Virus record (IMG/VR): IMGVR_UViG_3300026518_000006 | Location: 171,594 to 235,593 of that record | DNA: 64,000 bases | Strand: one strand, 5' to 3' | Source: a virus | Shown here: piece after piece, positions 9,808 to 63,984 of the stretch | How positions within the stretch are numbered: position 1 is the first letter of the stretch | How the letters are laid out: every line of letters begins with the position of its first letter | Program-made: the position numbers and the translations under genes | The notes under the pieces: model-generated | Database searches by the model: none | What the model saw: the letters and a program-made list of their open reading frames with translations, nothing else | What the model was told of the DNA's origin: nothing

Positions 9808-10144
9808 TTAAAAGGTTTCTTCAATAAATATCACATCTGTATATATAGTATTATTTGGAAATTTCATAACTATCAGATTGTTTTTATCAAAATTCCCAAT
9901 ATAGTTATCTACTTCTTCCCCATATATAAGGTAGTTTTGTTCTTAATTTAAGTTCATTTTCAATATCTTTATATTCTATTTTCTTCACTTTACAAAATCC
10001 TTTTCTGAAATATGTTTGAGCGAGTTTTGATTCGGGCGAAGTGCCTATAAACGCCTCTTCTTTAGTTTTAATACTTATGGCTCTAATTAAATAGTAATTA
10101 TTAGTCATATATGGACTTTCCATAAGCTTTAACGCACATATCAT
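9808..10144 (-). pseudogene. Unknown small protein, apparent frameshift near 9925
   Basis: The intact reading begins MICALKLMESPYMTNNYY and stops early at '...LPYIWGRSR'. One frame over, the next codons give 'YGEEVDNYIGNFDKNNLIVM' and continue in good coding sequence to a stop at 9808. A single-base change in the TATATATGGGG stretch would join the two into about 111 residues. It may be a sequencing error or genuine decay. The gene overlaps its upstream neighbour by 4 bases. Confidence 0.5.
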
Positions 10145-10377
10145 ATTAAAAACTCCGCATTTTCATTTTTAAAATTTTCCAACCTCTCTTTAAGTATCTC
10201 CAACATTTTATTTTCATAACTCCACTGTTTTTTTGCTTGGTTTAACCTTTCTTCATCAGAAGTATATCTCATTATGCTATCATAATATTCCAATGCACTA
10301 TATGTCTGATTTATAGAATTTTCTATATCAGCTAAAGTCTTGTTAAAATCTGCTTTAGTGAGTGGTCTTGTACTCAT
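10141..10377 (-). CDS. Small helical protein with variant C-terminal tag (AEFLI)
   Basis: The product has 78 residues, mostly charged helix ('LADIENSINQTYSALEYYDSIM'), likely a short coiled coil. It ends NENAEFLI, a loose version of the shared C-terminal signature found on many small proteins here. It is the third gene of a run of minus-strand small genes with 4-base or short spacings. Confidence 0.55.
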   Translation of the reverse strand: MSTRPLTKADFNKTLADIENSINQTYSALEYYDSIMRYTSDEERLNQAKKQWSYENKMLEILKERLENFKNENAEFLI

Positions 10378-10390
10378 TTTAATCCCTTTA

Positions 10391-10738
10391 TTATACCCAA
10401 TATTCAGGAAACTTTTTTATGTGTGCTTTTATTTCCCTTTTTATTTGTTCGGGAACTTTGGCGTTTTTGTTTGCTGTTATAATATTATGGTAATATTTAA
10501 ACAAATCCACTTTATTAGTGTATAAATTTTCCATATCAGTATTAAAAGTCATATAAAATATCTTTTCAGAGCGTCTATTTAAATCCCTAAAGCCATATCT
10601 ATATGAATATGGTTTAGGGTAAGTACTAATATTCTCAATATCTTCGACTATATATATTCTATATCCAACTTTAGTTTGAGAACTTCGTATAGCATATATT
10701 TTTTGCCCAAGCTCCAATTTTTCATCGGCTTTTATCAT
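10391..10738 (-). CDS. Small protein with SH3-like start and C-terminal tag FPEYWV
   Basis: The product has 115 residues. The start 'ELGQKIYAIRSSQTKVGYRIYIVEDIE' is beta-rich and resembles SH3-like barrels. The last residues are KKFPEYWV, a clear member of the C-terminal tag set. The ribosome binding site is AAGGATTTG. Function unknown. Confidence 0.6.
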   Translation of the reverse strand: MIKADEKLELGQKIYAIRSSQTKVGYRIYIVEDIENISTYPKPYSYRYGFRDLNRRSEKIFYMTFNTDMENLYTNKVDLFKYYHNIITANKNAKVPEQIKREIKAHIKKFPEYWV

Positions 10739-10747
10739 AACAAATCC

Positions 10748-11020
10748 TTATACAAATAATTCAGGAAATATCTCTTGATATCTCATACAACTCTCTTCTA
10801 AAAATTTTAGGTTCGATGGATTTTCTGTGAGTGTAAATCCAAAAACCTTGTATGCAATATACTCTTCCAAAACATCTAAAAATAAACTTTGGGATATAGT
10901 TAATTTTTTAGAGTGTGACAGCATACCTTCACTTATGTATTGCTCTACCTGCTTTTTAACTTCAGGGTCATAACAAAACTCATCTCCAAGAGGGTCATTC
11001 ATTTCGTTTTGATAATCCAT
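10748..11020 (-). CDS. Small protein with C-terminal tag FPELFV
   Basis: The product has 90 residues with helical content ('SQSLFLDVLEEYIAYKVFG') and ends EIFPELFV. It directly abuts the upstream gene, suggesting translational coupling. No domain recognised. Confidence 0.6.
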   Translation of the reverse strand: MDYQNEMNDPLGDEFCYDPEVKKQVEQYISEGMLSHSKKLTISQSLFLDVLEEYIAYKVFGFTLTENPSNLKFLEESCMRYQEIFPELFV

Positions 11021-11593
11021 TTATTCGAGTCCAAGATAAGATAGTCTTTCCTCTGCATCAATGAGCTTAATGTAATCTTCTTGAGATAACTTATAGTCAT
11101 TCAAAGTGGAAATTAACTTTCTCTTTTCCTCTTCAGATTTACCAACAACATTTATTTCGTCTAATTTCCTACAAAAATAATTGTAATCTTTTGACAACTT
11201 TGAAGTAATATTTTTAAGCTTGTTATATTCGGCTATAACCGCTCTCCCTGTCATTGGGTTATCTTCTATTTTTAAAAACAGTCTAATGTTAATATCTCCT
11301 GTTCTATCGAAATCATTACTATAATCTATATAGTATTTTCCTAAGAAGTACTCTCTACTTTCTTGAGAGATATCATCAAAATCATACCAATTGTAATACA
11401 TTTCACCATCAGCTTCATCATATCCTTCATCAACAATATTTCTAATATCTCTATAATCACCGTGGTTATTTGAAAACCCAAAATCAGTGAGAATATTAAA
11501 AAAATGCCCCTTATGACCATAGTGTAGGTCTGCCAAAAACTCAATAACTGCTTTAAAATCCTCTTGCTTGGTTAAATCATATGTTCCTACCAT
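11021..11593 (-). CDS. Unknown phage protein
   Basis: The product has 190 residues, rich in Asp, Tyr and Phe ('EMYYNWYDFDDISQESREYF'), with a helical C-terminal half ending LSYLGLE. It lacks the C-terminal tag of its neighbours. A GGAGAT ribosome binding site precedes the ATG. I see no family signature. Confidence 0.6.
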   Translation of the reverse strand: MVGTYDLTKQEDFKAVIEFLADLHYGHKGHFFNILTDFGFSNNHGDYRDIRNIVDEGYDEADGEMYYNWYDFDDISQESREYFLGKYYIDYSNDFDRTGDINIRLFLKIEDNPMTGRAVIAEYNKLKNITSKLSKDYNYFCRKLDEINVVGKSEEEKRKLISTLNDYKLSQEDYIKLIDAEERLSYLGLE

Positions 11594-11605
11594 AATACAT
11601 CTCCT

Positions 11606-11824
11606 TTATTCATCTATATAATCTGCATCGTGTCCGTGTCTTCGCATATCCCGCACTACTTTTCTGTGAAAGTTTGGGTCTGTTGAAGTACAACCAAAAT
11701 TGATTGTGTTTCCATTTTCATCACGCCACAAATCACCGTGTTTAGCGTGCCTTACCTTTTTATACCCGTGTTTAGTGGATAGTGCCTCTAATTTTTTGAT
11801 GGCTGTTGAGAGTTTCAAATGCAA
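11606..11824 (-). CDS. HicA-like small RNA-binding-fold protein
   Basis: The 72 residues follow the HicA/YcfA pattern: a first helix 'IKKLEALSTKHGYKKVR', a His-Gly-Asp strand 'AKHGDLWRDENGNTINFG', then a second helix with HRKVVRDMRRHG. HicA toxins are mRNA interferases using a His in this strand. No HicB partner is adjacent (the 96-residue gene downstream on the same strand is not HicB-like), so it may be a solitary derivative rather than a toxin. Confidence 0.45.
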   Translation of the reverse strand: MHLKLSTAIKKLEALSTKHGYKKVRHAKHGDLWRDENGNTINFGCTSTDPNFHRKVVRDMRRHGHDADYIDE

Positions 11825-11917
11825 CCCTTTTGTGGTAATATAATAGTATAGTGTAAAATTATTTAAAATAAACTTAAATTATAGAGGGGATGTTGGGATT
11901 GGGAAAAGCCGATTGGC

Positions 11918-12495: not shown

Positions 12496-12630
12496 AACTT
12501 TCCTTTTATTTTATTTTATTTTATTTTATACCATTATCTTTAATATAAACTTAAATCATATTTTAAAACATAATAGTTTAAGTTATAATTAAATCCTTTA
12601 AGGTAAAATAGCAGATAAAAAAGGATGTAA

Positions 12631-13437: not shown

Positions 13438-13438
13438 A

Positions 13439-16085: not shown

Positions 16086-16457
16086 TTATATCCCGCACTC
16101 AGGGTAACGCTCATATATACTTAGTAGTTTTTCATTTAGGGTATCGACACTTTTTTGTAGGCTTTCGTTTTCTTTCTGTAGAGATTCTATTATGTCTTGA
16201 GAATATTCCACCTCTCCATTTAAATCTTTAATTTCATTGATAGCCACATCTATCTGAAGTTCAAATTCTTTAATTTCTTCATTTGTTTTTTCGATAATAG
16301 AACAAAGTGGACATTCCATACCGTATCCGATAATGGGGTTATGTCTATTGGCAAAATCACCAACACACACCCACAAAAATTCTTCATCTTCCACGATAGA
16401 ATGTAGGTACTCCTCTATCTCTTTGATGTTTGAAGTCAAGTTATATTTGGCTACCAT
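16086..16457 (-). CDS. Coiled-coil protein with CPLC motif and variant C-terminal tag
   Basis: The product has 123 residues. An N-terminal part with 'WVCVGDFANRH' and 'MECPLCSII' could bind a metal. Residues 60-115 form a long heptad coiled coil ('EYSQDIIESLQKENESLQKS'). It ends ERYPECGI, a relaxed version of the PE-type tag. It follows the 80-residue gene without a gap. Confidence 0.6.
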   Translation of the reverse strand: MVAKYNLTSNIKEIEEYLHSIVEDEEFLWVCVGDFANRHNPIIGYGMECPLCSIIEKTNEEIKEFELQIDVAINEIKDLNGEVEYSQDIIESLQKENESLQKSVDTLNEKLLSIYERYPECGI

Positions 16458-17690: not shown

Positions 17691-18299
17691 TTAAATAAAA
17701 TACTGAGGAAAGTGTTCTTTACCGAACTCAATATATTTTTGTTTAATGTCTTTGTCTAACTCTACATTAGGGTAATAATATTTGTTTTCAAATGAAGTTA
17801 TTTGGTTATTATAACAATAGAATTTGCCCTCAATATCAGGACAGTATTTAAATGAAGTTATTTGATTATCACTACAATTAATATCACCTTTAATATCAGG
17901 ACAGTATTTAAATGAGGTTATCTCGTTATAACTACAATAAAAATAACCACCAATATCAGGACAATACTTGAATGAGGTTATTTTGTTTCCCCTACAATTA
18001 AAATCCCCCTTAATATCAGGACAATACTCAAAGGAAGTTATTTGATTTCCACTACAATAAAAATCACCCTTAATATCAGGACAAAACTTAAATGAGGTTA
18101 TCTCGTTATAGACACAACTAAAGTCACCCTTAACATCAGGACAGTATTCAAATGAAGTTATTTTGTTATAACTACAATCAAAATTACCCTCAACTCTTTT
18201 ATAACAACCCTCTAATGAAGTCAATCCTTTTTCAGAGACATCAAGGTCTCCATAATAGACTTCATTTGATTTGTCTCCGTAGAGGTCTTTGAATGTCAT
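17691..18299 (-). CDS. Repeat protein of the 'ITSFxYCPDIKGDFxC' type, with FPQYFI tag
   Basis: The 202 residues are made of seven 20-residue repeats with consensus N-x-ITSF-x-YCPDIKGDF-x-C-S, a leucine-rich-repeat-like solenoid with one conserved Cys pair per turn. It opens with 'LYGDKSNEVYYGDLDVSEKG' and ends HFPQYFI, matching the C-terminal tag set. A shorter paralogue lies at 46094 with nearly the same ends. Similar repeats occur in many phage proteins of unknown function. It has its own early promoter at 18319. Confidence 0.75.
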   Translation of the reverse strand: MTFKDLYGDKSNEVYYGDLDVSEKGLTSLEGCYKRVEGNFDCSYNKITSFEYCPDVKGDFSCVYNEITSFKFCPDIKGDFYCSGNQITSFEYCPDIKGDFNCRGNKITSFKYCPDIGGYFYCSYNEITSFKYCPDIKGDINCSDNQITSFKYCPDIEGKFYCYNNQITSFENKYYYPNVELDKDIKQKYIEFGKEHFPQYFI

Positions 18300-22088: not shown

Positions 22089-22529
22089 TTATATAAATCT
22101 CTCAGGATTGTCTTTCGAGTTCCAAATATCTCTAAGGTGCCAAAATTCAAGTGCGCTTATATAAGGAGTGCCTGCACTTGTTTTCCCGTACATTATAAGC
22201 TCTGAAGTTTCTTTTAAGTCTTTAAATGGAACATCGAAATATACATCAGTTATTATACCCTCATCATAAATTAAAAACGGCATTTTCGGAACAAAAGCTT
22301 TAGGAATATACTCATCTGTTTCTACCCTAATACCACTCTGCCCTTCAATATTACCGTAGCTTTTATCTATAGCTATATATTTTTCTTCATCCAAAAGGTC
22401 GTTTAATGTCAAAAGCTGAGCCTTATACACTATTCCCTTTTCTTTTACTAATTTCATTAAAGTATTATAGGTGGTTATATCTTGTAAGACAGAACTACCG
22501 TCTAATAAATTAGTAATTGTCTCTAACAT
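22089..22529 (-). CDS. Unknown protein with C-terminal tag NPERFI
   Basis: The product has 146 residues, mixed fold ('SVLQDITTYNTLMKLVKEKG'), ending KDNPERFI, one of the shared C-terminal signatures. It starts within the stop of the 47-residue gene upstream. No family recognised. Confidence 0.6.
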   Translation of the reverse strand: MLETITNLLDGSSVLQDITTYNTLMKLVKEKGIVYKAQLLTLNDLLDEEKYIAIDKSYGNIEGQSGIRVETDEYIPKAFVPKMPFLIYDEGIITDVYFDVPFKDLKETSELIMYGKTSAGTPYISALEFWHLRDIWNSKDNPERFI

Positions 22530-22723: not shown

Positions 22724-22981
22724 TTATATGATGTATTCAGGATATTTTTCTTCAATTACCCTATTTGTAATGCCTCTTTGATTTAATTCTAAGTTGATTA
22801 CAGTCTTTTCTATGTCCCCAATTAATTTACTGTTTCTTCTTTTTAACAACTCTTCTATGGTCATATCACCAATTTTAGTTTCCTCGTTTGTAGTGGTATT
22901 AGTGACTGAAGCCTTAATCACACCTTCTGAAAGTTTATTTAAATCTAAGCCTAAATGGTCTCTATTAACGTTATGGTTCAT
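22724..22981 (-). CDS. Small protein with C-terminal tag YPEYII
   Basis: The product has 85 residues. 'GDMTIEELLKRRNSKLIGDI' is helical; the end is EEKYPEYII. It overlaps the next upstream gene by 4 bases. Function unknown; a clear member of the C-terminal tag set. Confidence 0.65.
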   Translation of the reverse strand: MNHNVNRDHLGLDLNKLSEGVIKASVTNTTTNEETKIGDMTIEELLKRRNSKLIGDIEKTVINLELNQRGITNRVIEEKYPEYII

Positions 22982-23208
22982 ATAAAATACTCCATATATT
23001 TTTCTTTTATTTCTTTTTCATTTAAACCCAATCTTTCTTTTAAGATGTTTAGTGTAGCTGTGTGTTTGATTGTTTTTGGTTTTGCTGTAGCAAAAGCTTT
23101 CAATATTTCGTGCACATCTTCACTATTAAAGCGATTAAATAACGCTCGTAATCTTTTATCATATTTATTGTTATATCCCAAAATTTTTTTCATAAGCCAT
23201 AATAACAT
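22978..23208 (-). CDS. Small protein with C-terminal tag YMEYFI
   Basis: The product has 76 residues, basic and helical ('NKYDKRLRALFNRFNSEDVH'), ending KEKYMEYFI. Coupled by ATGA overlap to the tagged gene downstream, so tagged proteins occur in adjacent pairs. Confidence 0.65.
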   Translation of the reverse strand: MLLWLMKKILGYNNKYDKRLRALFNRFNSEDVHEILKAFATAKPKTIKHTATLNILKERLGLNEKEIKEKYMEYFI

Positions 23209-24610: not shown

Positions 24611-25744
24611 ATGGCTTGTTCATTAGAGGGTGGGTGTGGTAGCTCATCAGAAAGTATTCATATAGATATCAATACTACTAGCATTTGTAATATTGCTTGT
24701 ACTTATTGTTCAGAGGGAAATGAGTGTGGTTTGAGTACTCTATATATGGGGAATACTGAGGTAAAAGTAGAAGACTTGATTAAAAAATTAGGCAAAGACC
24801 CCGCTAAACATAAGACTATAAATTTTTGGGGGGGAGAGCCTTTTGTAAATTTTGATTTCTGCAAAGCTATTATAGACGGTTTTAAAGATGACAAAACATT
24901 TAGTTTCTTTTTTTATACCAATGGGTTGTATATACCAAATTATATCGACCAATTAAAGCGATGGAATGAAGAATTCGGGAAAGAGTTAAACGCTGATGGA
25001 CAAAATAGATTGTATCTTCAAATAAGTTATGATGGGCGACACCTCACAAATACAGTGAGAGTGGATAAAGGCGGTCACGGCACTGCTGATAGAGTTGAAA
25101 AGGCATATAAATTACTAAAAGAAAACAATATAGGAACTTCATTAAAAGCAGTGATTAGCACCGATGGTTTTCCATATCTTTTTGAAAGCTTTAAAGATTT
25201 ATATGAGCTTCAAGGTTTTTATTCACCAACACCTGATTTATGGTCTGATAGAAGTGAAGAAGAGTTCAATACTGATTTAGAAATACTTGGAAAAGAGCTT
25301 GAGAAGATAGCAAAGTATATATACCAAAATGATTTGAGTCCTGAAGTATTTAGTTGGTTTGCTAAATCAAGAGCGATTTGTAGTACAGGTGCGGGTATGC
25401 TTAGTATAGACCTTGATGGTGGCATATACCCTTGTCACGCAGGTATGTATGGTGAAAGCGAAGAGCATAAAATAGGAGAGCTTGAAGATTGGGAACATAT
25501 TAGAGAAAATGTTATGGATGACTTTAAAAAAATTAATACCAATCTTCCATTGGAATGTCAAACTTGTGATGTAAATTATTGTATGAAGTGCCAAATATCA
25601 AACTACGCAAAATCTACAAAAGATACATACGAGGAAAGATTTACAGATTATCAAGCAAATTGGCAGGTTTGCAAAATATTTAAAATGAACGACAAATATA
25701 ATAAAACACTGAGATATGCAATGACACAAAAAGGATTGAGATGA
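24611..25744 (+). CDS. Radical SAM/SPASM enzyme 1
   Basis: The product has 377 residues. The [4Fe-4S]-AdoMet motif is C26-N-I-A-C30-T-Y-C33, followed by 'INFWGGEPFVNFDFCKAI' (GGE motif) near 78. The C-terminal part has Cys in 'YPCHAGMYG' and 'CQTCDVNYCMKCQISNYA', plus a last Cys in 'NWQVCKIF', the spacing of a SPASM domain with auxiliary clusters, as in anSME and peptide-maturing enzymes. First gene of the island. Substrate unknown. A likely sigma-70-like promoter lies in the 70 bases upstream (TATAAGTATAATGC). Confidence 0.9.
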   Translation: MACSLEGGCGSSSESIHIDINTTSICNIACTYCSEGNECGLSTLYMGNTEVKVEDLIKKLGKDPAKHKTINFWGGEPFVNFDFCKAIIDGFKDDKTFSFFFYTNGLYIPNYIDQLKRWNEEFGKELNADGQNRLYLQISYDGRHLTNTVRVDKGGHGTADRVEKAYKLLKENNIGTSLKAVISTDGFPYLFESFKDLYELQGFYSPTPDLWSDRSEEEFNTDLEILGKELEKIAKYIYQNDLSPEVFSWFAKSRAICSTGAGMLSIDLDGGIYPCHAGMYGESEEHKIGELEDWEHIRENVMDDFKKINTNLPLECQTCDVNYCMKCQISNYAKSTKDTYEERFTDYQANWQVCKIFKMNDKYNKTLRYAMTQKGLR

Positions 25745-26364
25745 GTGCCAAACTCACATCTCAAGAGCTCAAAGATAAAGCAAATAAAAACAATCCTGAT
25801 GTGCAAATCATAGGTAAATATATAAATTCCAAAACAAACATCTATGTTATTTGTAAATGTGGCAATACGACATCTGTTAGACCCAGTGAATTATATAAAT
25901 CTTGGCGATGTTTTGAGTGTGGTATAAAAGCAAGAAAATACATAAATGGAAATGGAGGATGGTCAACTAAAAGAAATAAAGAAGCTAAAAACAGAATAAT
26001 TCAAAAACACAAAGAATTATTATCCAAAAAATTGCCACATATTGAGTTGGTAGGAGATTATGAGGACAGTAAAACAAAGACAAATTATATCTGTTTTAAG
26101 GTTGGATTAACTCTTTATAAGTATAATGATGTTACGAAATGTATAAAAAATCGCTTTAGAAAAGAGAATAATAATATACTTCTGTTAGGATATATTATAT
26201 TCAAAAATGGAGCGGAAGGTTATGAGTTGGAGCAAAGAATCTTAAATTCTCATCAAAAATATAACTCGGATATTTTGCAATTTGGTGGTAATTCCGAACT
26301 GTTATCTGAGAATATTATTGCTCTCGATAAATACAAATTCATAAAAACAAAGGAAATTATATGA
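25741..26364 (+). CDS. Homing-endonuclease-like protein (zinc ribbon plus GIY-YIG-like C-terminus)
   Basis: The product has 207 residues. A Cys-rich segment 'YVICKCGNTT' ... 'RCFECGIKAR' is a small zinc ribbon. The C-terminal 'NGAEGYELEQRILNSHQKY' and 'FGGNSELLSENI' match the C-terminus of the 236-residue gene at 34201 ('DGVQAYKLEQAVINELKDK', 'FSGYTEIFNEDFI'), a pattern of phage GIY-YIG-related homing endonucleases, with Glu of LEQ as the probable catalytic residue. It is inserted by ATGA overlaps between two radical SAM genes, the second of which carries the coding gap at 26574. Confidence 0.55.
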   Translation: MSAKLTSQELKDKANKNNPDVQIIGKYINSKTNIYVICKCGNTTSVRPSELYKSWRCFECGIKARKYINGNGGWSTKRNKEAKNRIIQKHKELLSKKLPHIELVGDYEDSKTKTNYICFKVGLTLYKYNDVTKCIKNRFRKENNNILLLGYIIFKNGAEGYELEQRILNSHQKYNSDILQFGGNSELLSENIIALDKYKFIKTKEII

Positions 26365-27660
26365 AAACAAACACAACAAACACAACAAACACACAAAAAT
26401 ATACTGAGCTTCAAGACAATAATATAAAAATGAAGTACAATATGAAAACAAACACAACAAACACAACAACCAAAATTAATACCAAAAAACCAACACAAAA
26501 AAGTAAAGGTAATGGATTTAAAACATTTACACTTGAAGTACAAACAACACAAAAATGCAATTTGGGCTGTCCTCGGCTTTGCCGATAAGTTAATTTTTTA
26601 GTATTTAGAGTAAATACCTTATTGCTATGTAGCAAATAGAGACCTTTTTCTTACACCTGAAGTATTTGATAAAAGTTTCGAAAGAATTATTGATTTAATG
26701 CAGAGAAGTGGCACTACCAATTTGAATATTAGTTTTTTTGGTGGCGAGCCTTTATTAAATTTTGAAGTTATCAAGCATATTACTAAAAGAGTTGAAGCAC
26801 TCCCTATTAGAACAGACTTAGTTTTAATTTCAAATATGACTATGATTACAGAAGAAATTTCAGACTTTTTGTTTGAGCATAATATTGGTGTGTCTTGGTC
26901 TTTCGATGGTATGGGGTCTAATGAAACAAGACCACTTTTGCCTATTTTTGAAAACAAGAATAAAGACGGAAAATTATACAATGGAATTTTAGACCTCTAT
27001 GAAGACAAAAAAGACCTTATTTTAAAGCACACCAACGGCTGTAAAATTATGATTTGGGCAGGAAATATGCACCAAATGAGCGAAAATTTAGACTTCTTTG
27101 TTGATTGGGGTTTAACAGGGCTTGATTACTCATTAGTAAGAGATGATGTGTGGACTAAAGATGATTTGATAGCATTTAGAGGACATCTAAGAGACTTAGC
27201 CGATAAGTATATTCAGTACACAAAAAAAGGTGTCCCTTTACATATAGGTTTTTTTGATTTAGCTATTGGTGATAATGTTATTAACTTTACATTTGGCAAA
27301 AGAGATTTCGGGTGTTTTGCAGGTGTAAATGGTGCAAATATGACACCAACAGGAGAGTTCTACCCTTGTGCTAGATTTGCTACAAAATCACTTATGAAAA
27401 TTGATGATGAGTATGATTTTAATTATTGGGCTGAACAATTTAGACCTGCCAATTATGATAAATGCAAGACTTGTGATATTCAACAAGTTTGTAACGCAGG
27501 ATGTACCTTTAGTCAAGTTAGAAATGACAATAAACCTGTGGATAGTGTTTGTGAGTTGTATCATATGATACAAGAAGAAACGATTAGAATAGTACACGAA
27601 TTAAAAGACAACGAGTTGTTTCAAGAACAGGTTATGTCATTATTTAACAATATGGGGTGA
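26361..27660 (+). CDS. Radical SAM/SPASM enzyme 2, interrupted by a 43-nt coding gap
   Basis: Translation from 26361 gives a Thr/Asn-rich leader with a repeated MKTNTTNTT segment, then 'TLEVQTTQKCNLGCP', and stops at TAA 26586-26588. From the second CCT at 26617 a different frame reads PYCYVANRDLFLTPEVFDK and runs to 27660 through 'LNISFFGGEPLLNFEVI', 'MTPTGEFYPCARF' and a SPASM end 'CKTCDIQQVCNAGC' plus 'SVCELY'. Joining at Pro71 yields C66-NLG-C70-P-Y-C73-Y, a perfect radical SAM motif, and about 417 residues with no other lesion. Both halves are therefore under selection or very recently split. See the separate entry for the gap. It is coupled to the endonuclease gene upstream. Confidence 0.75.
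26571..26619 (+). other. Candidate translational bypass element (take-off CCT, 43-nt gap, landing CCT)
   Basis: Take-off codon CCT at 26571-26573 and landing codon CCT at 26617-26619 are identical and 46 nt apart, so the frame changes by +1. The 43-nt gap opens with hairpin TCGGC-TTT-GCCGA (26573-26585), then the in-frame TAA, then an AT-rich linker, then hairpin GTATTTA-GAG-TAAATAC (26601-26617) that abuts the landing codon. T4 gene 60 has the same logic: matched GGA codons, a stop after take-off, a hairpin and a gap of about 50 nt, next to a homing endonuclease gene. Alternative: a palindromic insertion with a 3-bp duplication that inactivates the gene. Confidence 0.6.
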
Positions 27661-41589: not shown

Positions 41590-42579
41590 ATGAGACAGTA
41601 TGATTTTAATTATATTGATAGCAAAGTAGTTGGGTTTATGATAAATGATATTTGTAATATGGCTTGTACTTATTGTTATCAACAAGCAAACAATTTATGT
41701 GAAGACGACCACAAAAAAAATAGAGCTCTTATTGATAAAGTGCTTGATTATGTTGTGCATCTATCAGAAGTAGATAGACCTCATCAGATAAGCATAGAGG
41801 GAGGGGAGCCATTTTTTGATACACAAACATTAGAATACTTTTTCACACAGGTTGAAAAAAAATTAAAACAATACCCAAATTTTTATTCAAGGATATTAAT
41901 TGTAACAAACGGGACTAAAAGAGATAATATAAAATACATTATAGATAAATTTGATTTTAGTGCTTTCAATGTCACAATGGAAGTATCATTACATTATACG
42001 CAAATGTCAAATACAGCACTAAAAAAATTCACATCTAATGTTGTGGAATTTAAAAAATATATTGAGTATGTTAGAGTATTGGCACCATTAAGCCTAAAAA
42101 AGCTCCCAAAATACCTAAATATTATATTGAAAGTGTTAGATTTGCACGATGTATATTATTTTTTTGCACCAATTGTAGGATTAAATGAAATTAATGAGAT
42201 ATATGATATGAGTGGTTTTCCTTTTAAGGGTGAGGTAGATGTTTTAATAAATGGGGAAACAAAGAATATCAATGCAATATACGACAAATCACTAACAACT
42301 GACGGTATGGTGTGTGAAAATAATCAGTGCTTCTTTTTTTATAATACAGGGGATATAAAAATGTTTTCCTGTATTAATAATAGAGAAACAAAAAATATCT
42401 TCAAAGATAGTTTTGATGATATTTTTCAAATGGATAAACGAACAATATGTACTCTTGATTATTGTATGGACTGTAATTTGAATACAAAATATGAGATGTC
42501 TGAGTTAGACCCAAACAATAAAGACGATGCTGACTTAATAAAATATTACATAGAGCAACGAAATAATACATCTTTCTAA
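41590..42579 (+). CDS. Radical SAM enzyme 9
   Basis: The product has 329 residues. C22-NMA-C26-TY-C29-YQQ, 'QISIEGGEPFFDTQTLEY', and C-terminal 'VCENNQCFFFYN', 'MFSCINN', 'TICTLDYCMDCNLN', an auxiliary-cluster pattern. Last of the series; followed by a 64-base gap with inverted repeat TGCCATAAA...TTTATGGCA before the transketolase gene. Confidence 0.85.
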   Translation: MRQYDFNYIDSKVVGFMINDICNMACTYCYQQANNLCEDDHKKNRALIDKVLDYVVHLSEVDRPHQISIEGGEPFFDTQTLEYFFTQVEKKLKQYPNFYSRILIVTNGTKRDNIKYIIDKFDFSAFNVTMEVSLHYTQMSNTALKKFTSNVVEFKKYIEYVRVLAPLSLKKLPKYLNIILKVLDLHDVYYFFAPIVGLNEINEIYDMSGFPFKGEVDVLINGETKNINAIYDKSLTTDGMVCENNQCFFFYNTGDIKMFSCINNRETKNIFKDSFDDIFQMDKRTICTLDYCMDCNLNTKYEMSELDPNNKDDADLIKYYIEQRNNTSF

Positions 42580-43348: not shown

Positions 43349-43612
43349 GTGAAGATAGAGCCAAATGATTTAGTGCAATACAAAATAGAAGACCACAGTG
43401 ACAGCAGTCTAAAATATGGTGTTATTGAACATATATCGTAGCGCAAAGATACAAATAATGATATGCTATCAGGCACAATTGCTTTATGGAAAATAAAAAA
43501 TAAAGGCTGTATTAAACAAATGTATCTACTTTCACATTTTAAAGTTATTGAAAATTTTGGTAAAATAACCCCCGCTGAATTCAAAAAACAATACCCTGAG
43601 AGGTTTATATGA
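43349..43612 (+). pseudogene. Small tagged protein (YPERFI) interrupted by in-frame TAG
   Basis: From GTG at 43349 (AGGAGAAAATT ahead) the reading is MKIEPNDLVQYKIEDHSDSS ... IEHIS, TAG at 43439-43441, then in the same frame RKDTNNDMLSGTIALWKIKN ... KKQYPERFI, TGA overlapping the next ATG. The 87 residues form an SH3-like small protein with the C-terminal tag. One point change explains it; suppression cannot be excluded. Confidence 0.6.
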
Positions 43613-43869
43613 GATTATACAAGAACAAAAAACTAATGGTTGCCGTAGATGACAATCTGCAAAGTTGGACGAAAATAACCGACAACCCAAACAGCATATT
43701 CAACAATAGTGATAAATACACTCCAAAAGGATATGTGATAAAGATAAAAAAAGACTTTTGTATTTGCAGAGTAGGTTTTGAAACAACTCCTGTTATGGAA
43801 TTATACTATGTTGGTGTTTTTTACAATGAAGATGATTTAAAGAAACTTATACCTGAGAATTTTGTTTAA
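43609..43869 (+). CDS. Small protein with C-terminal tag IPENFV
   Basis: The product has 86 residues, beta-rich ('MRLYKNKKLMVAVDDNLQSW'), ending KKLIPENFV. Overlaps the interrupted gene by 4 bases. Similar in layout to the next gene (both start with a short strand, then 'L...DDLR/DNLQ'). Confidence 0.65.
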   Translation: MRLYKNKKLMVAVDDNLQSWTKITDNPNSIFNNSDKYTPKGYVIKIKKDFCICRVGFETTPVMELYYVGVFYNEDDLKKLIPENFV

Positions 43870-43871: not shown

Positions 43872-44141
43872 ATGAGAATATATATTAATAACCAAAAAGA
43901 AACTCCCTTAATGGTGGGCTTGACAGACGACCTTAGACATCATTCAACTGTATCAACTAAAACCAAAGATTTATTTATCACTTTAAAAAAGGTGTATTTA
44001 AAAGATGTTTCAGAAAAATATTGTTATTATACCTCTAAGTATTCTTACAGTGAGATGGGAGGTACTATAAAATTCAAGTACATAGGTCAGGTTGAAAAAG
44101 AGGAAGATGTAATGAGTCTTATAGCGGAGTATTTTATATGA
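43872..44141 (+). CDS. Small protein with C-terminal tag IAEYFI
   Basis: The product has 89 residues. 'MRIYINNQKETPLMVGLTDDL' parallels the previous gene, and 'KFKYIGQVEKEEDVMSLIAEYFI' (in parts) its end, so the two are paralogues. The last residues are LIAEYFI. Overlaps the next gene by 4 bases. Confidence 0.65.
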   Translation: MRIYINNQKETPLMVGLTDDLRHHSTVSTKTKDLFITLKKVYLKDVSEKYCYYTSKYSYSEMGGTIKFKYIGQVEKEEDVMSLIAEYFI

Positions 44142-44410
44142 CTAAAGAACTCGTGGTTGGCGAATATTGTGTATATGACTATGAGGGTGTTGTGATATTA
44201 ACCAAAATAGAAAAGAATAAAGAATATTTTGGTGGAATTCAAGCTGTGGATATATTTAAAGTTAATAAAGGAGCTGAAAATCCACACATAGACATAATGA
44301 CATCTCCTTGGGAAATTGCGAAGGTCATCACATCAAATGGAATAGATGTACTGGGCGTTTTTAAGAATAAAGAGGAAATGTTGAAAGAATTTGGAGAATA
44401 TTTTATATAA
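44138..44410 (+). CDS. Small protein with C-terminal tag FGEYFI
   Basis: The product has 90 residues, start 'MTKELVVGEYCVYDYEGVVI' SH3-like, end 'MLKEFGEYFI'. Fourth gene of the tagged cassette inserted between the two transketolase halves. Confidence 0.65.
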   Translation: MTKELVVGEYCVYDYEGVVILTKIEKNKEYFGGIQAVDIFKVNKGAENPHIDIMTSPWEIAKVITSNGIDVLGVFKNKEEMLKEFGEYFI

Positions 44411-46093: not shown

Positions 46094-46642
46094 CTATATG
46101 AAATACTGAGGAAAGTGTTCGTTACCGAACTCAATATATTTTTGTTTAATGTCTTTGTCTAACTCTACATTAGGATAGTAATACTCGTTTTCAAATGAAG
46201 TTATTTGGTTATTATAACAATAGAATTTGCCCTTAACATCAGGACAGTATTTAAATGAAGTTATCTGATTATAACTACAATTAATATCACCTTTAATATC
46301 AGGACAAAACTCGAATGAAGTTATTTGATTTCCACTACAATTAATATCACCCTTAATATCAGGACAAAACTCGAATGAAGTTATCTGATTTCCACTACAA
46401 TCAAAATTGTCCTTAATATCAGGACAATACTCAAATGAGGTTATCTCGTTATAGGCACAATTAAAGTCACCCTTAATATCAGGACAGTACTTAAATGAGG
46501 TTATTTTGTTATAACTACAATCAAAATTACCCTCAACTCTTTTATAACAACCCTCTAATGAAGTTAATCCTTTATCAGAGATATTAAGGTCTCCATTATA
46601 GACTTCATTTGATTTGTCTCCATAGAGGTCTTTGAATGTCAT
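46094..46642 (-). CDS. Repeat protein, paralogue of 17691, with FPQYFI tag
   Basis: The product has 182 residues with six 20-residue ITSF-x-(Y/F)CPDIKGD-x-NCS repeats, one fewer than the copy at 17691. N-terminal 45 residues and the end 'IEFGNEHFPQYFI' are almost identical between copies, while inner repeats are shuffled, which suggests duplication followed by unequal exchange. Function unknown. Confidence 0.75.
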   Translation of the reverse strand: MTFKDLYGDKSNEVYNGDLNISDKGLTSLEGCYKRVEGNFDCSYNKITSFKYCPDIKGDFNCAYNEITSFEYCPDIKDNFDCSGNQITSFEFCPDIKGDINCSGNQITSFEFCPDIKGDINCSYNQITSFKYCPDVKGKFYCYNNQITSFENEYYYPNVELDKDIKQKYIEFGNEHFPQYFI

Positions 46643-54019: not shown

Positions 54020-54262
54020 ATGGTGTATGATAAAATATATAATGACTATATAGGTGTTGATTTCGTAAAGAAAATTATTGGTGAAGAGGTAGATATTGAG
54101 CTACTTACTCCAAAACAATTGAAAGCCATTTATAAAACGACAATAAAGATATTGCAAAACTATGATAAAACAAAAGAATACCTTGAACCTGAAGCTACAA
54201 AATTTGAAGTTGAAGCCCTCAATAGATTTATAGAGGAAAATTGGAGTGAAGCACTTATTTAA
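54020..54262 (+). CDS. Small protein with loose C-terminal tag WSEALI
   Basis: The product has 80 residues, helical ('LLTPKQLKAIYKTTIKILQN'), ends ENWSEALI. First of a dense plus-strand run of small genes. Confidence 0.6.
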   Translation: MVYDKIYNDYIGVDFVKKIIGEEVDIELLTPKQLKAIYKTTIKILQNYDKTKEYLEPEATKFEVEALNRFIEENWSEALI

Positions 54263-54274: not shown

Positions 54275-54535
54275 ATGTGGTTGGAAGAAATAAGAAAAAT
54301 ACCGCTTAAATCAACAGATAAAACTTTCGTTATATATGACATAAAAACAGGATATGCAGTTCCTATTTTAGAAGAGGTTAAAGATATAAAAACTCAATAT
54401 AAAGAGATTTTAAAATTCTTGAAATTTCCTGTTGTGTCTCCTGATGCTGATTCTGAGAATATAACGAAACTAAAAGAAGACGCAAAAGAAATAAAAGAGT
54501 TGATAGAGCGGTATTATGCTGAACATTTAATATAA
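54275..54535 (+). CDS. Small protein with loose C-terminal tag YAEHLI
   Basis: The product has 86 residues; beta start ('TFVIYDIKTGYAVPILEEVK') then helix, ending RYYAEHLI. Same operon as the previous gene. Confidence 0.6.
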   Translation: MWLEEIRKIPLKSTDKTFVIYDIKTGYAVPILEEVKDIKTQYKEILKFLKFPVVSPDADSENITKLKEDAKEIKELIERYYAEHLI

Positions 54536-54545: not shown

Positions 54546-55337
54546 ATGAATACAGGAAAATCTTTTTGTGTAGTGTGTGAACGATTGGTTAATAGTGTCG
54601 AAACTGAATGTACAAGATGTAAAAATCCTACTGTTTATATTGGACAAATACCACGATTTCCGAAACACCCCAAAAAATCGGATTATGAATTTATGGCTAA
54701 TGCTGTGATGAGAGCTTTAAAATACAACAGAAAACGCTATAATAAAACAAATGATGGCTTTTTAGATAAAATTAACAACTTTTTATCGAAATATTCTTCT
54801 ATTTATGACAAAAAAGTAATTGACTCTATAATAAATCCTGAAGAGAAGGAGCCACAGGTGTCTCTTTGTGATTTCGACTCAACACACTTTGACAAAGAAA
54901 GTCCTGATGTGTTCTACATTTTTAAATTTCTTGATAGGTATGCTGTTAAGGAGATAAATATAAACAAAACCTATTACACTTCTAATATTTCTATTATAAC
55001 AAAGCTTATTGATGCAACAACACTAACTGGATTATTCACGATTAAAGAGAGTGAATTACAAAATATCGAATGGTTTAAAACCACAAAGACGAACTATCTA
55101 TCTAAAACAAAACGAATGAGTAACACTGTTGTTTTGGGTTCATTTATGAACAGAGAAGGTGATGATGTATTGAATGTCTATTTTGAAGATAAATTGTTGT
55201 CTAAAATTTTGGCTTCTGAAATGAAATTATTTGTGTTAAAATACCAAAACTTTTTTAACACAGAAATAGTTAGGCAAGCTTTGGAGGCTCCTGATTATCA
55301 TACGATAAGTAGACACTTCCCCGAAATAATGGTATAA
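54546..55337 (+). CDS. Zinc-ribbon protein with C-terminal tag FPEIMV
   Basis: The product has 263 residues. A zinc ribbon at the N-terminus has 'FCVVCERLVNSVETECTRCK' (two CxxC pairs). The rest is unassigned; it ends SRHFPEIMV, in line with the tag set although this protein is much longer than most tagged ones. Confidence 0.6.
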   Translation: MNTGKSFCVVCERLVNSVETECTRCKNPTVYIGQIPRFPKHPKKSDYEFMANAVMRALKYNRKRYNKTNDGFLDKINNFLSKYSSIYDKKVIDSIINPEEKEPQVSLCDFDSTHFDKESPDVFYIFKFLDRYAVKEININKTYYTSNISIITKLIDATTLTGLFTIKESELQNIEWFKTTKTNYLSKTKRMSNTVVLGSFMNREGDDVLNVYFEDKLLSKILASEMKLFVLKYQNFFNTEIVRQALEAPDYHTISRHFPEIMV

Positions 55338-56186: not shown

Positions 56187-56540
56187 ATGAAAATTGAAAC
56201 AGAGCTTAAAGACCTTTACAAAAACAACATAAAAAATAGCGTTTTAATCGCTATGTATATAGTGATGGTTGTGGGCTCCTTTTTTGGAGATGTAGAAATA
56301 CCAAAAACAAATGCAGGTGTTATCTACATAACCACGATGTTTATAGCATTTATGTTGTCAGGTATGTATATAGCGGGAGTTATTGTAGATTTTATTAAAG
56401 TGAGAGAATGGAATAAAGATGTTGCTGATGCCATTAATGGGAAAGAAAATCTTTTAAAACAAGTGTTTGATTTTCATAAAAATATTAAGGCAACTAAAAA
56501 GAAGTACTCTGATTATTTTACCAACAAAAAGGACGATTAA
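56187..56540 (+). CDS. Small membrane protein with two spans
   Basis: The ATG at 56187 follows AAGGATTGAAA. The product has about 117 residues with spans 'SVLIAMYIVMVVGSFFGDV' and 'VIYITTMFIAFMLSGMYIAG' and a basic C-terminal helix. Overlaps the next gene by one base. Confidence 0.6.
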   Translation: MKIETELKDLYKNNIKNSVLIAMYIVMVVGSFFGDVEIPKTNAGVIYITTMFIAFMLSGMYIAGVIVDFIKVREWNKDVADAINGKENLLKQVFDFHKNIKATKKKYSDYFTNKKDD

Positions 56541-56812
56541 TGCCTATTAAACAAGGTGATATTTATTATATGGATATAGGCGATAAGTCTTTTATTGGTG
56601 TAGTAGAAGAGGTTGATTTAGAGGGTGATGGTGCTTCATCGGTATATGTACTTTATTCCTTGAGCACAAATGAAGAGCGATATTTTCCATATATAATCGA
56701 TAACAAAAATCTAAAAGAAAAAATATCAAATATAAAAGTAAAAAGAGTAAAAAATAGAGTGGAGTATTACAAGCCTATACTTATTAACTTATTTCCTGAA
56801 AGGTATGTGTGA
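56540..56812 (+). CDS. SH3-like small protein with C-terminal tag FPERYV
   Basis: The product has 90 residues. 'KQGDIYYMDIGDKSFIGVVE' is an SH3-like start similar to the genes at 43349 and 44138; it ends NLFPERYV. The stop overlaps the next ATG by one base. Confidence 0.65.
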   Translation: MPIKQGDIYYMDIGDKSFIGVVEEVDLEGDGASSVYVLYSLSTNEERYFPYIIDNKNLKEKISNIKVKRVKNRVEYYKPILINLFPERYV

Positions 56813-57126
56813 TGAAAGTTAACAAACCGAATAAGGTGTTGGAATTAGGTTTAGACACACTAGAAAAAGTCACTGGGTATATAGTATTTGTGGAAGATTA
56901 CAAAAAAAATTTTGATAGAATTGACATTCTCAACAAATACATCGATAATAAAGAGCTCTCTATTGAAGATATTAGGTGGGCTACTAATGAAATAAGAGCT
57001 ATTCTACAAAATGAATGTGTTTGTGAACAGGCAGGAGAACCCAAATACAATATGATGTACCATAAACAAAACTACAAATCTCTTTTGGAAAAGATTTGTG
57101 AAAAATACCCTCAATTTATGGTGTAA
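56812..57126 (+). CDS. Small protein with C-terminal tag YPQFMV
   Basis: ATG at 56812 overlaps the previous TGA. About 104 residues, helical ('DKVLELGLDTLEKVTGYIVF' style start), ending CEKYPQFMV, a Gln-for-Glu form of the tag. Confidence 0.6.
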   Translation: MKVNKPNKVLELGLDTLEKVTGYIVFVEDYKKNFDRIDILNKYIDNKELSIEDIRWATNEIRAILQNECVCEQAGEPKYNMMYHKQNYKSLLEKICEKYPQFMV

Positions 57127-57129: not shown

Positions 57130-57414
57130 ATGAAACATATTCCTTTAATTGTTTGGTGTAATGATATTTACGATTTGGAAGAAGTCGAGGGGTATCTTGG
57201 AGTTTATTTTTGTGAAGATGGTTTTCATAAAGATATCCACTATCCCTGTATTTATTATTATGACGAAAGGGAAGAATATTACGATTTACTTGAAACTTCT
57301 ACTATTTCTATAAAAGAATTAAAAGAAATTTTTTACAGAAAACAAAAGGAAAATTCACTTATACCGATGAAGCCATCTGATATTATAAAAGATTTTCCTG
57401 AATATTTAGTCTAA
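57130..57414 (+). CDS. Small protein with C-terminal tag FPEYLV
   Basis: The product has 94 residues: acidic, Tyr-rich ('YYYDEREEYYDLLETSTISI'), ending IKDFPEYLV. Part of the tagged operon. Confidence 0.65.
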   Translation: MKHIPLIVWCNDIYDLEEVEGYLGVYFCEDGFHKDIHYPCIYYYDEREEYYDLLETSTISIKELKEIFYRKQKENSLIPMKPSDIIKDFPEYLV

Positions 57415-57424: not shown

Positions 57425-57758
57425 GTGAGTACTCGATATATTAAAGTTGTGAGAAAAAAGGCTACCCTGAGTTCAGATTTGTCGCAAGAAAACCAAAAGG
57501 TGTTGTATATCTGTCTTACTCGACAAACCAAAAAAGAATTGAACAAAAAATTTACGAAAAAATTTACTCCGATATGTATGAGAAAGAAGAAGAGCTCTCG
57601 AAGAAATATGAGCCAAAAGAGCAGGAAATCGAGAAAAAATATACGCTCTCCATAGGGAGTTGGATAAACTTAGAGATGAATACAACAATGAATTAGAAGA
57701 CATAATGAATAAAATCGTGTCGGAATTCAAAGAAAATAACCCACAATATTTTATTTAG
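57425..57758 (+). pseudogene. Tagged coiled-coil protein with two single-base frameshifts (NPQYFI)
   Basis: Three successive frames give one sensible protein: MSTRYIKVVRKK, then GYPEFRFVARKPKGVVYLSY and a coiled coil to 'EKKYEPKEQEIEKK' style text, then 'YALHRELDKLRDEYNNELED' to the end FKENNPQYFI. Each join needs one extra A in a run of six (near 57463 and 57635). The tag at the very end supports the repaired reading. A homopolymer undercall is the simplest cause. Confidence 0.55.
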
Positions 57759-60304: not shown

Positions 60305-60343
60305 TTCAAAAGTTCTAAAAATCCTAAAAATCTCATAAAGTAC

Positions 60344-60372
60344 TTGACTTCTTTCAAGGATTATTGTATAAT
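60344..60372 (+). promoter_or_regulatory. Early sigma-70 promoter, family copy 9
   Basis: TTGACT-N17-TATAAT followed by AGGGT and a GGACTTGAAATG leader; drives the broken gene and DNA ligase. Confidence 0.85.
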
Positions 60373-60398
60373 AGGGTAAAATAACTAAAGGACTTGAA

Positions 60399-61993: not shown

Positions 61994-62015
61994 ACCTATA
62001 TTTCAAAGGATGATT

Positions 62016-62284
62016 ATGATAACTTTAGTAATGGAAGAAACGGAAGGTTTACAAAAGCCTATAGAGTTAAAAATTAATGATAGAGTATTCAAATACCACT
62101 ATAATAATGAAACTCCTGATGAGAGTTTTTTAAACTACTTGAAAGCTATATCAATTACAAAATAAAAGTGGAATTTAAGAGTAAAAGTGGTACTATAACT
62201 AAAGTTGGTGTTATTAGAGATGTTAAACCTACAAAACAAGGGGTTTTTGGTATTGTATTGGACGATATGTTATTGCTTGCATAA
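62016..62284 (+). pseudogene. Small protein with one-base frameshift near 62118
   Basis: MITLVMEETEGLQKPIELKI ... TPDES continues, if the T6 run is T7, as FFKLLESYINYKIKVEFKSK to 'GIVLDDMLLLA' and TAA at 62282. As written the first frame stops after 49 codons. The repaired protein has about 89 residues. Not recognised. Confidence 0.5.
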
Positions 62285-62294
62285 GGGGTAAATT

Positions 62295-62675
62295 TTGGTA
62301 TATTCACAAAGAGCAACTGTAAAAGATTATACTACTATTGTTAAAGATGCTGAATATGATAAGTATTATAAAGACCCGAAAGATGTCTTAATCTTAACAA
62401 AAGAAACAATAAAAAATAAGTATTTTTTAACAAAAATTGATGGTAAACTATTTGGATTCAAAGATGAGTTTGAATATGAATTATATTCAGAGGGTGTTTC
62501 AAATATCGAGTTTATTCCGCCTGATTTAATGGGCAGAAGAGTACAAGTGTTTGAAACTACAAAAGATAAAATTAGGTTAAAGAGTAAACACTACAGATTT
62601 GAATATGCCTATATAGGCTTATGGGTGGTAGAGCGTCTTTTAAAACCTGAAAAAGACCCTGAATATTTTATATAG
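62295..62675 (+). CDS. Small protein with C-terminal tag DPEYFI
   Basis: TTG start behind AAGGGGTAA. The product has 126 residues, beta/alpha mix ('RRVQVFETTKDKIRLKSKHY'), ending EKDPEYFI. First of four consecutive tagged genes. Confidence 0.6.
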   Translation: MVYSQRATVKDYTTIVKDAEYDKYYKDPKDVLILTKETIKNKYFLTKIDGKLFGFKDEFEYELYSEGVSNIEFIPPDLMGRRVQVFETTKDKIRLKSKHYRFEYAYIGLWVVERLLKPEKDPEYFI

Positions 62676-62682
62676 GATTGAT

Positions 62683-63068
62683 ATGAAAAAGTTCACTAAA
62701 GATAAGTTTGTTATTGTTTTTAAATCAGATGATTACGATAATACCCTAATACTACACAATTCATATTTTGATGATATTGCAGATGATTTCATTCCTATTG
62801 AACCATCCGATAAGAACTCAAAACTATCACCATTTGCAAGTTCTCCAATAGGATATTTTAATAGTATAGAAGAGGCTAAGGCATATATTTACTCTAAGAG
62901 GTTTATGAAGTTGGAGAATTATATAAAAAGGATTATTAATAACGATGAACATCAAGGTTTATCTCCAAGATATATTAAGGCGGTAGTAGAATCTTATATA
63001 GGAGAAAGAAATAAACTCAAAGAAGTTATTAAGAAACACCAAAAAAATTTCCTGAGTACTATATATGA
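62683..63068 (+). pseudogene. Tagged protein (FPEYYI) with frameshift at an A7 run
   Basis: As written the frame ends ...QKNFLSTIYENA at 63078. With one more A in the run at 63041-63047 the end becomes KKFPEYYI followed by TGA that overlaps the next ATG (ATGA), exactly like the neighbouring tagged genes. The repaired reading is preferred. About 127 residues; 'FVIVFKSDDYDNTLILHNSY' start, 'IEEAKAYIYSKRFMKLENYI' middle. Confidence 0.6.
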
Positions 63069-63310
63069 AAATGCTTAAAAATAACGATGTATATATCTAT
63101 CTACCAAAATTGTTAAGTAAAGAGTTTGTTGAGTTTCTTTATCGTGTAGATAAAGAAAAAGAAAAAACTGTAGTTTTATCTATACTTGCATATGGCAAGG
63201 GAAGATACCAATTTTTTGGGAATTGGACGGAAACAAATAAAGAAGATTTTTTTGAGCATTATATGAAATATGATAAAGCTGTTGAACTATACCCTGAATA
63301 TTTTGTGTGA
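63065..63310 (+). CDS. Small protein with C-terminal tag YPEYFV
   Basis: The product has 81 residues, start MKMLKNNDVYIYLPKLLSKE, end ELYPEYFV. Coupled to the previous gene by ATGA if that gene is read in its repaired frame. Confidence 0.65.
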   Translation: MKMLKNNDVYIYLPKLLSKEFVEFLYRVDKEKEKTVVLSILAYGKGRYQFFGNWTETNKEDFFEHYMKYDKAVELYPEYFV

Positions 63311-63315
63311 ATTAG

Positions 63316-63702
63316 ATGTGTAAAGTAAAAAATACTAAAGAAGTTGATGTTTTTGAATTGATTAGAAATGGTGACTACAAAACACCTATCGGTAAATTTA
63401 TCTATATTATTGATGCAAACAGCCCCATAATAACAAAACATATGATTGTTGATGTTAAGCTTCCTAATGTAAAATACCACCAATACGGGGTTATTCATTA
63501 CGACTCAGGAAATGGCGCAATCCATTCTTATATAATGGGAAGAATAAATGGGTCTATAAAAAATAGGTTTCACTCTAATATAATAAAAGTAGTCAAGGCA
63601 CTTATGAATAGACACAACTTAACTAAAACACAAATCACAGATGAGTACACAAAAGCTGTACTTAAAAGTGTTGCTGAAGAAATTCCCGAATATTTTGTAT
63701 AG
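63316..63702 (+). CDS. Small protein with C-terminal tag IPEYFV
   Basis: The product has 128 residues ('GDYKTPIGKFIYIIDANSPI', 'IIKVVKALMNRHNLTKTQIT'), ending EEIPEYFV. Same operon. Confidence 0.65.
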   Translation: MCKVKNTKEVDVFELIRNGDYKTPIGKFIYIIDANSPIITKHMIVDVKLPNVKYHQYGVIHYDSGNGAIHSYIMGRINGSIKNRFHSNIIKVVKALMNRHNLTKTQITDEYTKAVLKSVAEEIPEYFV

Positions 63703-63705
63703 GAT

Positions 63706-63984
63706 ATGTTTATGGAGATATATAAAAATGACTTATTTGTATTAAAAGGTAGAAGAGGAGCCTTTTTATTGTATATTGTTGATATTAAAACCGAAAACTA
63801 TGCAAATAAAAGCAAAGTGATGTGTGAATATTATGAAATAGATTCAAATACTTACACTAAAGAGTCGAAGCCTCTATATTTAATATCACAAAGATTAAAA
63901 CATTTTATGTTTTTAGAAAATATTGAGGTTCCTGATACAGAAATTATGAATTTGAGAGATAGATATTTAGAGTATTTTATTTAA
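63706..63984 (+). CDS. Small protein with C-terminal tag YLEYFI
   Basis: The product has 92 residues ('MEIYKNDLFVLKGRRGAFLL' start, resembling the SH3-like tagged proteins), ending DRYLEYFI. ATG at 63706 or 63712. Last complete gene of the window; 16 bases remain after it. Confidence 0.65.
   Translation: MFMEIYKNDLFVLKGRRGAFLLYIVDIKTENYANKSKVMCEYYEIDSNTYTKESKPLYLISQRLKHFMFLENIEVPDTEIMNLRDRYLEYFI

Follow-up and report, generated by a model that had tools for sequence, protein, structure and literature searches.

Many small, mutually unrelated proteins of a T4-like virus end in the same short peptide. The DNA analysed here, hereafter called the window, is a stretch of 64,000 nucleotides covering positions 171,594-235,593 of the 235,593-base (235.6 kb) IMG/VR record IMGVR_UViG_3300026518_000006, which as a whole is referred to as G000. 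The tag in question is a C-terminal peptide of about 15 residues, in which a short amphipathic helix is followed by [FYH]-P-[EQ]-x-[FL]-[IV]-COOH. A preliminary description of the window had listed it on some 27 small proteins; our data confirm that the tag is real and more widespread than first noted, with copies spread across the whole 235.6 kb of G000, beyond the window, and in related phages. It is very probable that the tag acts as a recognition peptide. From phylogeny and gene neighbourhood we tentatively propose that this peptide may be read by one factor, a MoxR-type AAA+ ATPase acting with a DUF2201 partner protein.

G000 is a T4-like myovirus contig with a GC content of 31%, encoding a DnaB-like helicase, a clamp loader, a ligase and a gp23-type capsid protein. 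The closest isolated relatives of the latter belong to the Vibrio phages phiKT1024 and Va1 and to Campylobacter phages (41-44% identity). A sister contig of 183 kb, G001, has about 125 genes in common with it.

Frequency and distribution of the tag

Among the 409 selected non-overlapping open reading frames (ORFs) of the whole G000 contig, 50 end in P[EQ]..[IV]-stop; judging by how often the pattern occurs inside the same proteins, 0.18 would be expected. A six-residue profile, partly built from the tags being counted, gave 52 observed and 0.02 expected at a threshold of 10. An unbiased search of all two- and three-position patterns within the last six residues reached 1e-70 at the C-terminus of the G000 proteins versus 1e-5 at a control position. 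The same search gave 1e-28 for G001, 1e-113 for Va1, 1e-103 for phiKT1024 and 1e-43 for the contig G022, while T4, KVP40, Aeh1, CP220, CP39, AD45, phiTE, SBP1 and AR9 yielded 1e-4 to 1e-7, approximately the level of the control position. The possibility, raised in the preliminary description, of a motif no commoner than chance is thus contradicted by the count, the profile and the pattern search alike.

The tag was found on 40 of 150 proteins in G022, 31 of 279 in G001, 66 of 357 in Va1 and 69 of 343 in phiKT1024, the two cultured Vibrio phages carrying 66-75 tags each. When the whole of IMG/VR was scanned for FP[EQ]YFI-stop (with TAA as the stop codon), only 19 stretches were returned. These matches led to G001 and to the contigs G017 and G011, both with several tags, and searches with the capsid protein added the tagged contigs G018, G021, G022, G025 and G039. 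In T4, KVP40, Aeh1, S-PM2, CP21, CP220 and CP39, tags were no more frequent than the control; KVP40, for example, has one in 385 proteins, which is about chance. The phages phiTY18, which shares 97% identity with phiKT1024 and 93% with Va1 (PMC9633966), and Pv27, 98% identical to phiKT1024 (PMC12063606), may be counted among the carriers by near-identity. No earlier description of the tag was found in the literature searched.

Unrelated bodies and accessory character of the tagged proteins

After removal of their last 16 residues, 330 tagged proteins fell into 215 body clusters, 137 of them singletons. It is therefore highly improbable that the tagged proteins form one divergent family of which the ending is a part of the fold, the case that the preliminary description had set against its own proposal. 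Several bodies do resemble small beta-barrels by eye, and a low-confidence AlphaFold model of the protein at window 44138-44410 places the tag in a C-terminal helix. Against this, the clusters include an LRR-like solenoid and coiled coils, and the tagged proteins share almost no Pfam or PHROG family. The two structure predictions made of contig proteins had low confidence (pLDDT 54 and 38), and nothing firm is based on them. Searches of the tagged proteins with Pfam, PHROG and PADLOC showed nearly all of them to be ORFans, with scattered weak matches.

The LRR-like solenoid family has a repeat of about 20 residues (CPDIKGDFYCS..NQITSFEY) in varying numbers and is nearly always tagged. Its copies lie at window 17691-18299 and 46094-46642, with about five more in G000 and about eight in G001, and the sole relative found in a genome scan with the solenoid protein is in Flavobacterium.

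The tagged genes are accessory, since homologues in related phages are rarer for them than for untagged genes of G000 (7 of 54 non-solenoid tagged proteins versus 122 of 306 untagged ones, p 9e-5). They are also neighbours of one another at about three times the expected frequency. Where homologues exist elsewhere (20-47% identity), they are nearly always tagged as well, in the dialect of their own phage. The tag was kept in 8 of 8 pairs with G022 and in the solenoid, 18691, 25007, 160367 and 151046 families. The exceptions, 101884 and 214237, are core proteins with loosely fitting endings that are probably tag-like by chance.

Tagged genes of the window

All 22 hexapeptides named in the preliminary description were found directly before a stop codon on the strand given, and its three looser endings, NAEFLI (10141), WSEALI (54020) and YAEHLI (54275), are also present. 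Some gene starts needed correction. The YPQFMV gene begins at 56809, not at 56812. The ending YPERFI stands, whereas the frame proposed from 43349 contains an in-frame stop and its open part begins at 43463. Likewise, NPQYFI (at 57738) and FPEYYI (at 63048) do precede stop codons, whereas the starts assigned to them, 57425 and 62683, lie in another frame, both genes being frame-broken in the contig. The three broken tagged genes (43349-43612, 57425-57758 and 62683-63068) could reflect sequencing error or real decay. The genes concerned, together with that of the candidate receptor component encoded in the window, are the following (window positions).

5027-6586, minus strand: DUF2201_N putative metallopeptidase and VWA-like protein, 519 aa, candidate receptor component (Pfam)
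10141-10377, minus strand: 78 aa, looser tag NAEFLI
10391-10738, minus strand: 115 aa, tag FPEYWV
10748-11020, minus strand: 90 aa, tag FPELFV
16086-16457, minus strand: 123 aa, coiled coil, tag YPECGI
17691-18299, minus strand: 202 aa, LRR-like solenoid (multicopy family), tag FPQYFI
22089-22529, minus strand: 146 aa, tag NPERFI
22724-22981, minus strand: 85 aa, tag YPEYII
22978-23208, minus strand: 76 aa, tag YMEYFI
43463-43612, plus strand: open part of a gene with an upstream in-frame stop, tag YPERFI
43609-43869, plus strand: 86 aa, tag IPENFV
43872-44141, plus strand: 89 aa, tag IAEYFI
44138-44410, plus strand: 90 aa, tag FGEYFI; G022 homologue also tagged (NPEYFI)
46094-46642, minus strand: 182 aa, solenoid paralogue, tag FPQYFI
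54020-54262, plus strand: 80 aa, looser ending WSEALI
54275-54535, plus strand: 86 aa, looser ending YAEHLI
54546-55337, plus strand: 263 aa, Cys-rich N-terminus (CVVCERLV...CTRC), no Pfam match, tag FPEIMV
56540-56812, plus strand: 90 aa, tag FPERYV
56809-57126, plus strand: 105 aa, tag YPQFMV
57130-57414, plus strand: 94 aa, tag FPEYLV; G022 homologue also tagged (FPEYFV)
57425-57758, plus strand: frame-broken gene, tag NPQYFI at 57738 in a frame other than that of the start
62295-62675, plus strand: 126 aa, tag DPEYFI; G022 homologue also tagged (EPEYFV)
62683-63068, plus strand: frame-broken gene, FPEYYI at 63048 in a frame other than that of the start
63065-63310, plus strand: 81 aa, tag YPEYFV
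63316-63702, plus strand: 128 aa, tag IPEYFV
63706-63984, plus strand: 92 aa, tag YLEYFI

Dialects and constraint on the peptide

In an ungapped alignment of the last 15 residues (the last being -1), acidic residues occur near -15 and -12, hydrophobic ones at -13 and -10 and K/R at -9, followed by an aromatic residue or His at -6, P at -5, E (or Q) at -4, a variable residue at -3, F/L at -2 and I/V at -1. The last position is I or V in nearly all tags, and the third residue from the end carries the lowest information of the last five (in Va1, L 24, E 15 and Y 12). Each phage nevertheless has its own dialect: PEYFV in G022, P[QYH][YH]FI in G001, where position -4 is Q, Y or H and never E, and PE[LEY]FI in the Vibrio phages. 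Position -1 is V in 29 of 40 tags of G022 and I in 69 of 75 of Va1. Such concerted change in dozens of genes would be expected from one reader co-evolving with the tags, and we infer a single trans-acting reader of the tag.

Between Va1 and phiKT1024, 65 of the 69 tags with an orthologue are kept. Positions -1, -2, -4 and -5 are identical in 97, 94, 100 and 98% of the pairs in which both members are tagged, compared with about 82% elsewhere, these values being biased upward because the pair set required a motif match in both. Where a Va1 tag overlaps the next start codon as ATGA, its Glu codon is GAG in 27 of 30 cases and doubles as the ribosome site of the following gene, whereas with the next gene at least 10 nt away the codon is GAA in 24 of 29 cases. 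The P, E, F and I residues are the same in both classes, which places the constraint on the peptide and not on the DNA, since the residues stay while only the codons vary with the distance to the next gene. The tag DNA therefore does double duty, yet its residues are independent of the ribosome-site role.

This observation refutes in the main the idea that the tag is a by-product of DNA constraint, in which an embedded Shine-Dalgarno/ATGA junction or an upstream promoter element would happen to spell PE.FI-stop, and we give that idea almost no credence. It is true that about 40% of the Vibrio-phage tags overlap the next start as ATGA with GAG as the ribosome site, and that many tag stops of G001 have a promoter-like element starting 2 nt downstream. 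However, only three ATGA overlaps were counted among the G000 tags, and the invariant proline is a poorer choice for a ribosome site than a lysine codon would be. An excess of CCT in G000 suggests only weakly that the tags have a recent DNA origin in common.

As to the G001 elements themselves, 47 copies of TTTAAG-N11-TATAAT were found (L032-L041). About half of them start 2 nt after the stop codon of a gene, so that the last tag codons overlap their upstream side. Their use as a Campylobacter sigma-70 promoter, and hence as a host clue, was rejected, the spacing being off the published consensus, which has a spacer of 15-19 bp (PMC3824568).

Expression timing and packaging

A T4-type late promoter (TATAAATA) within 120 bp upstream was found for none of 208 tagged genes of G000, G001, G022 and phiKT1024, compared with 147 of 973 untagged ones. 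With Va1 replacing G022 the figures are 0 of 246 versus 160 of 1142 (Fisher p 6e-15); Va1 and phiKT1024 are close relatives, and G000 and G001 alone give 3e-7. Judging from these promoters, the tagged genes would be early or middle genes. In agreement with this, none of the 41 genes in the structural block of phiKT1024 is tagged.

These results bear on the possibility that the tag loads proteins into the head for injection, as a C-terminal counterpart of the capsid-targeting sequence (CTS) of T4 internal proteins. The logic would be the same, small variable bodies with a conserved terminal address: the T4 internal proteins are small and diverse and only their targeting sequence is conserved (PMC3012670). 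Besides the absence of late promoters and of tags in the structural block, however, T4-like CTS starts (MNFRAYLLEGG, MSFKSYINES, MKFKQFLAES) are present on separate, untagged proteins of the tag phages, and the three such proteins found in G000 all follow late promoters. The promoter argument alone is not conclusive, because for the T4 CTS proteins themselves the same scan likewise gave no late promoter within 120 bp; combined with the presence of CTS on other proteins, it disfavours packaging, which we consider very unlikely. Most simply, the tag is a second address, separate from the T4-type CTS.

With respect to the nature of the signal, the preliminary description had proposed a recognition signal on non-homologous proteins, with a protease, a chaperone, a PDZ-like domain or a targeting or packaging receptor as reader. 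The signal itself is upheld by the 215 body clusters and by a motif far above chance. The packaging receptor is disfavoured by the promoters and the CTS, and a canonical PDZ domain does not fit, PDZ position -2 being the most variable. A protease, a chaperone or another docking factor may be the receptor.

A candidate reader of the tag

The mechanism that we propose could operate as follows. In a T4-like phage lineage the peptide would have been added to early accessory proteins, most of them ORFans, all of which would be bound at the free C-terminus by the same factor within the infected cell. This reader may be the MoxR-type AAA+ ATPase of the phage together with its partner, a DUF2201 VWA protein and putative metallopeptidase, and it would remodel or remove the tagged proteins.

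The MoxR-type AAA_5 ATPase of G000 is encoded at 162243-163349 (minus strand) of the contig, outside the window. This gene and that of the DUF2201 protein are the two fitting a reader among the G000 genes that the Vibrio phages have too and that are missing from CP220, CP39, T4 and KVP40, and the pair of AAA_5 ATPase and VWA partner is encoded in the tag phages G000, G001, Va1 and phiKT1024. The MoxR subfamily also occurs in G018/G021 and in G037, a contig with one strong tag, and was not found in any untagged T4-like genome tested. In G000, G001 and Va1 together, eight neighbours of the MoxR and DUF2201 genes are tagged (one being a variant that ends in IQPYII), above the number for random large genes (p about 5e-5, a post hoc value). 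In G001, no untagged gene of at least 300 aa other than these two has tagged genes on both sides. Tagged genes again adjoin MoxR/DUF2201 in G021, and the only two tagged genes among the 71 of G028 both lie directly beside DUF2201.

Several observations weigh against this reading. Pairs of the MoxR+DUF2201 type occur in AD45, phiTE, SBP1 and AR9 without any C-terminal motif, and DUF2201 is present in G023, G024 and G026 with no tag or one. G022, G025 and G039 are tagged, and MoxR/DUF2201 was not found on these fragments. In G000 itself DUF2201 is not adjacent to tagged genes; besides its post hoc p-value, the neighbourhood association is affected by the fact that early genes cluster anyway; and a host receptor would give the same sequence signature. 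The pair as a general predictor of the tag was thus rejected, on account of the distant phages that have it without the motif and of G026, with DUF2201 and one tag.

Three small genes downstream of MoxR (161265, 161574 and 161898 of the G000 contig, minus strand) end in LTPYLI, IQPYII and IQPYII, possibly a further variant of the tag, and stand outside the tag totals. The DUF2201 family (window 5027-6586) is labelled 'HNH endonuclease' in PHROG phrog_1314 and in several public records, a label to which Pfam gives no support. A ClpP-like protease and an MreB-like protein were rejected as receptors because they are unspecific, both being also encoded in the untagged CP220. An SohB/SppA-like peptidase, as read from its sequence (annotated 'protease'; Va1 4525, phiKT1024 104807-105718), has tagged genes on both sides and is possibly another partner of the tag.

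A serious alternative, although we regard it as rather unlikely, is that the tag docks early proteins on another hub, such as the host RNA polymerase, the ribosome, the membrane, the replisome or a phage scaffold, with neither unfolding nor proteolysis. Early accessory ORFans are the class expected to act on the host machinery, a conserved amphipathic helix with a C-terminal hook would suit docking, and untagged T4-like phages share the replication core yet lack the tag. On the other side, the genes specific to the tag phages are MoxR/DUF2201 with a few lysis, tail, nucleotide-metabolism and unknown genes, among which no other hub was found, and the core polymerase, clamp loader, sigma factor, ligase and primase are untagged.

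The tag could also be a C-degron through which a host protease, AAA+ or tail-specific, removes the early proteins at a later stage of infection. The free hydrophobic C-terminus (I/V), the conserved positions -2, -4 and -5 and the restriction to early-class genes are consistent with it. We nevertheless find it unlikely: the end is not of the LAA type seen in ssrA, the dialect varies between phages, and the T4-like Vibrio phage KVP40 lacks the tag, so that the presence of a general Vibrio protease does not in itself make the tag necessary.

The proposal of MoxR/DUF2201 as the reader can be extended, though with considerable doubt, to the whole system: up to about a quarter of the genes of a phage, nearly all of them early and accessory, may carry a dialect-specific address read by the phage's own MoxR/DUF2201. 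If this were true, newly captured genes would need no more than the tag to enter the programme, and its codons can double as the next ribosome site.

Other features of the window

A leader made up of a promoter and a ribosome site, CTTCTATTAAAGATTATTGTATAATTAGGTATAAAAAGAGATAAAGGATTGAAAATG, recurs before many small genes, both tagged and untagged. It has 25 matches on the G000 contig, nearly all of them true copies, and in the window it stands at about 15984, 17640, 18335, 19659, 24446, 46002, 53104, 57843 and 60356; its in-frame reading gives repeated 'KDYCIIRYLKRE' peptides. Radical SAM proteins are encoded at window 24611-27660 and 41590-42579, inside a gene block with G001 homologues; two were matched by search, and that of 41590-42579 resembles them and has homologues in G001 and CP220.

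Significance and comparison with known systems

The early genes of phages are mostly ORFans that offer no handle on function, and the shared label would mean that one factor deals with 50-75 of them in each phage; identifying this factor would place all tagged early proteins in one pathway. The question is testable now because cultured Vibrio phages carry the tag, which also provides a rule by which early accessory proteins of related metagenomic phages can be recognised from their sequence.

In principle, the tag resembles known terminal sorting peptides, and it matched no family tested. The cargo-loading peptides of encapsulins are also C-terminal and common to unrelated proteins, with an HK97-fold shell as their one receptor; the sequence of the tag is different and nothing here points to a capsid reading it. 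C-terminal ligands of PDZ domains, including DegS/Tsp substrates, end in a free hydrophobic residue, as the tags do with I/V, and their usual specificity position is -2, with S/T or a hydrophobic residue. The tag is conserved at 0, -1, -3 and -4 in PDZ numbering, whereas -2 varies and is often charged; it is a misfit as a canonical PDZ ligand because this position is the most variable of its last five residues. With degrons of the ssrA type, which have an LAA-type end added by tmRNA, and with other bacterial C-degrons, it shares the short C-terminal recognition peptide and a possible AAA+ reader; unlike the ssrA type, it is encoded in the gene, ends in I/V without LAA and has its own dialect in each phage. 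The T4 CTS and the tag are both conserved terminal addresses, carried in T4-like phages by small accessory proteins that change rapidly, but the CTS is N-terminal and serves the scaffold core, whereas the tag is C-terminal and found on genes without late promoters. For the known pairs of MoxR AAA+ and VWA proteins, no mention of a C-terminal tag was found. By Pfam and tblastn, the candidate receptor belongs to the same class as two such pairs, RavA-ViaA and NorQ-NorD, and differs from them in the DUF2201_N putative metallopeptidase domain of the phage partner.

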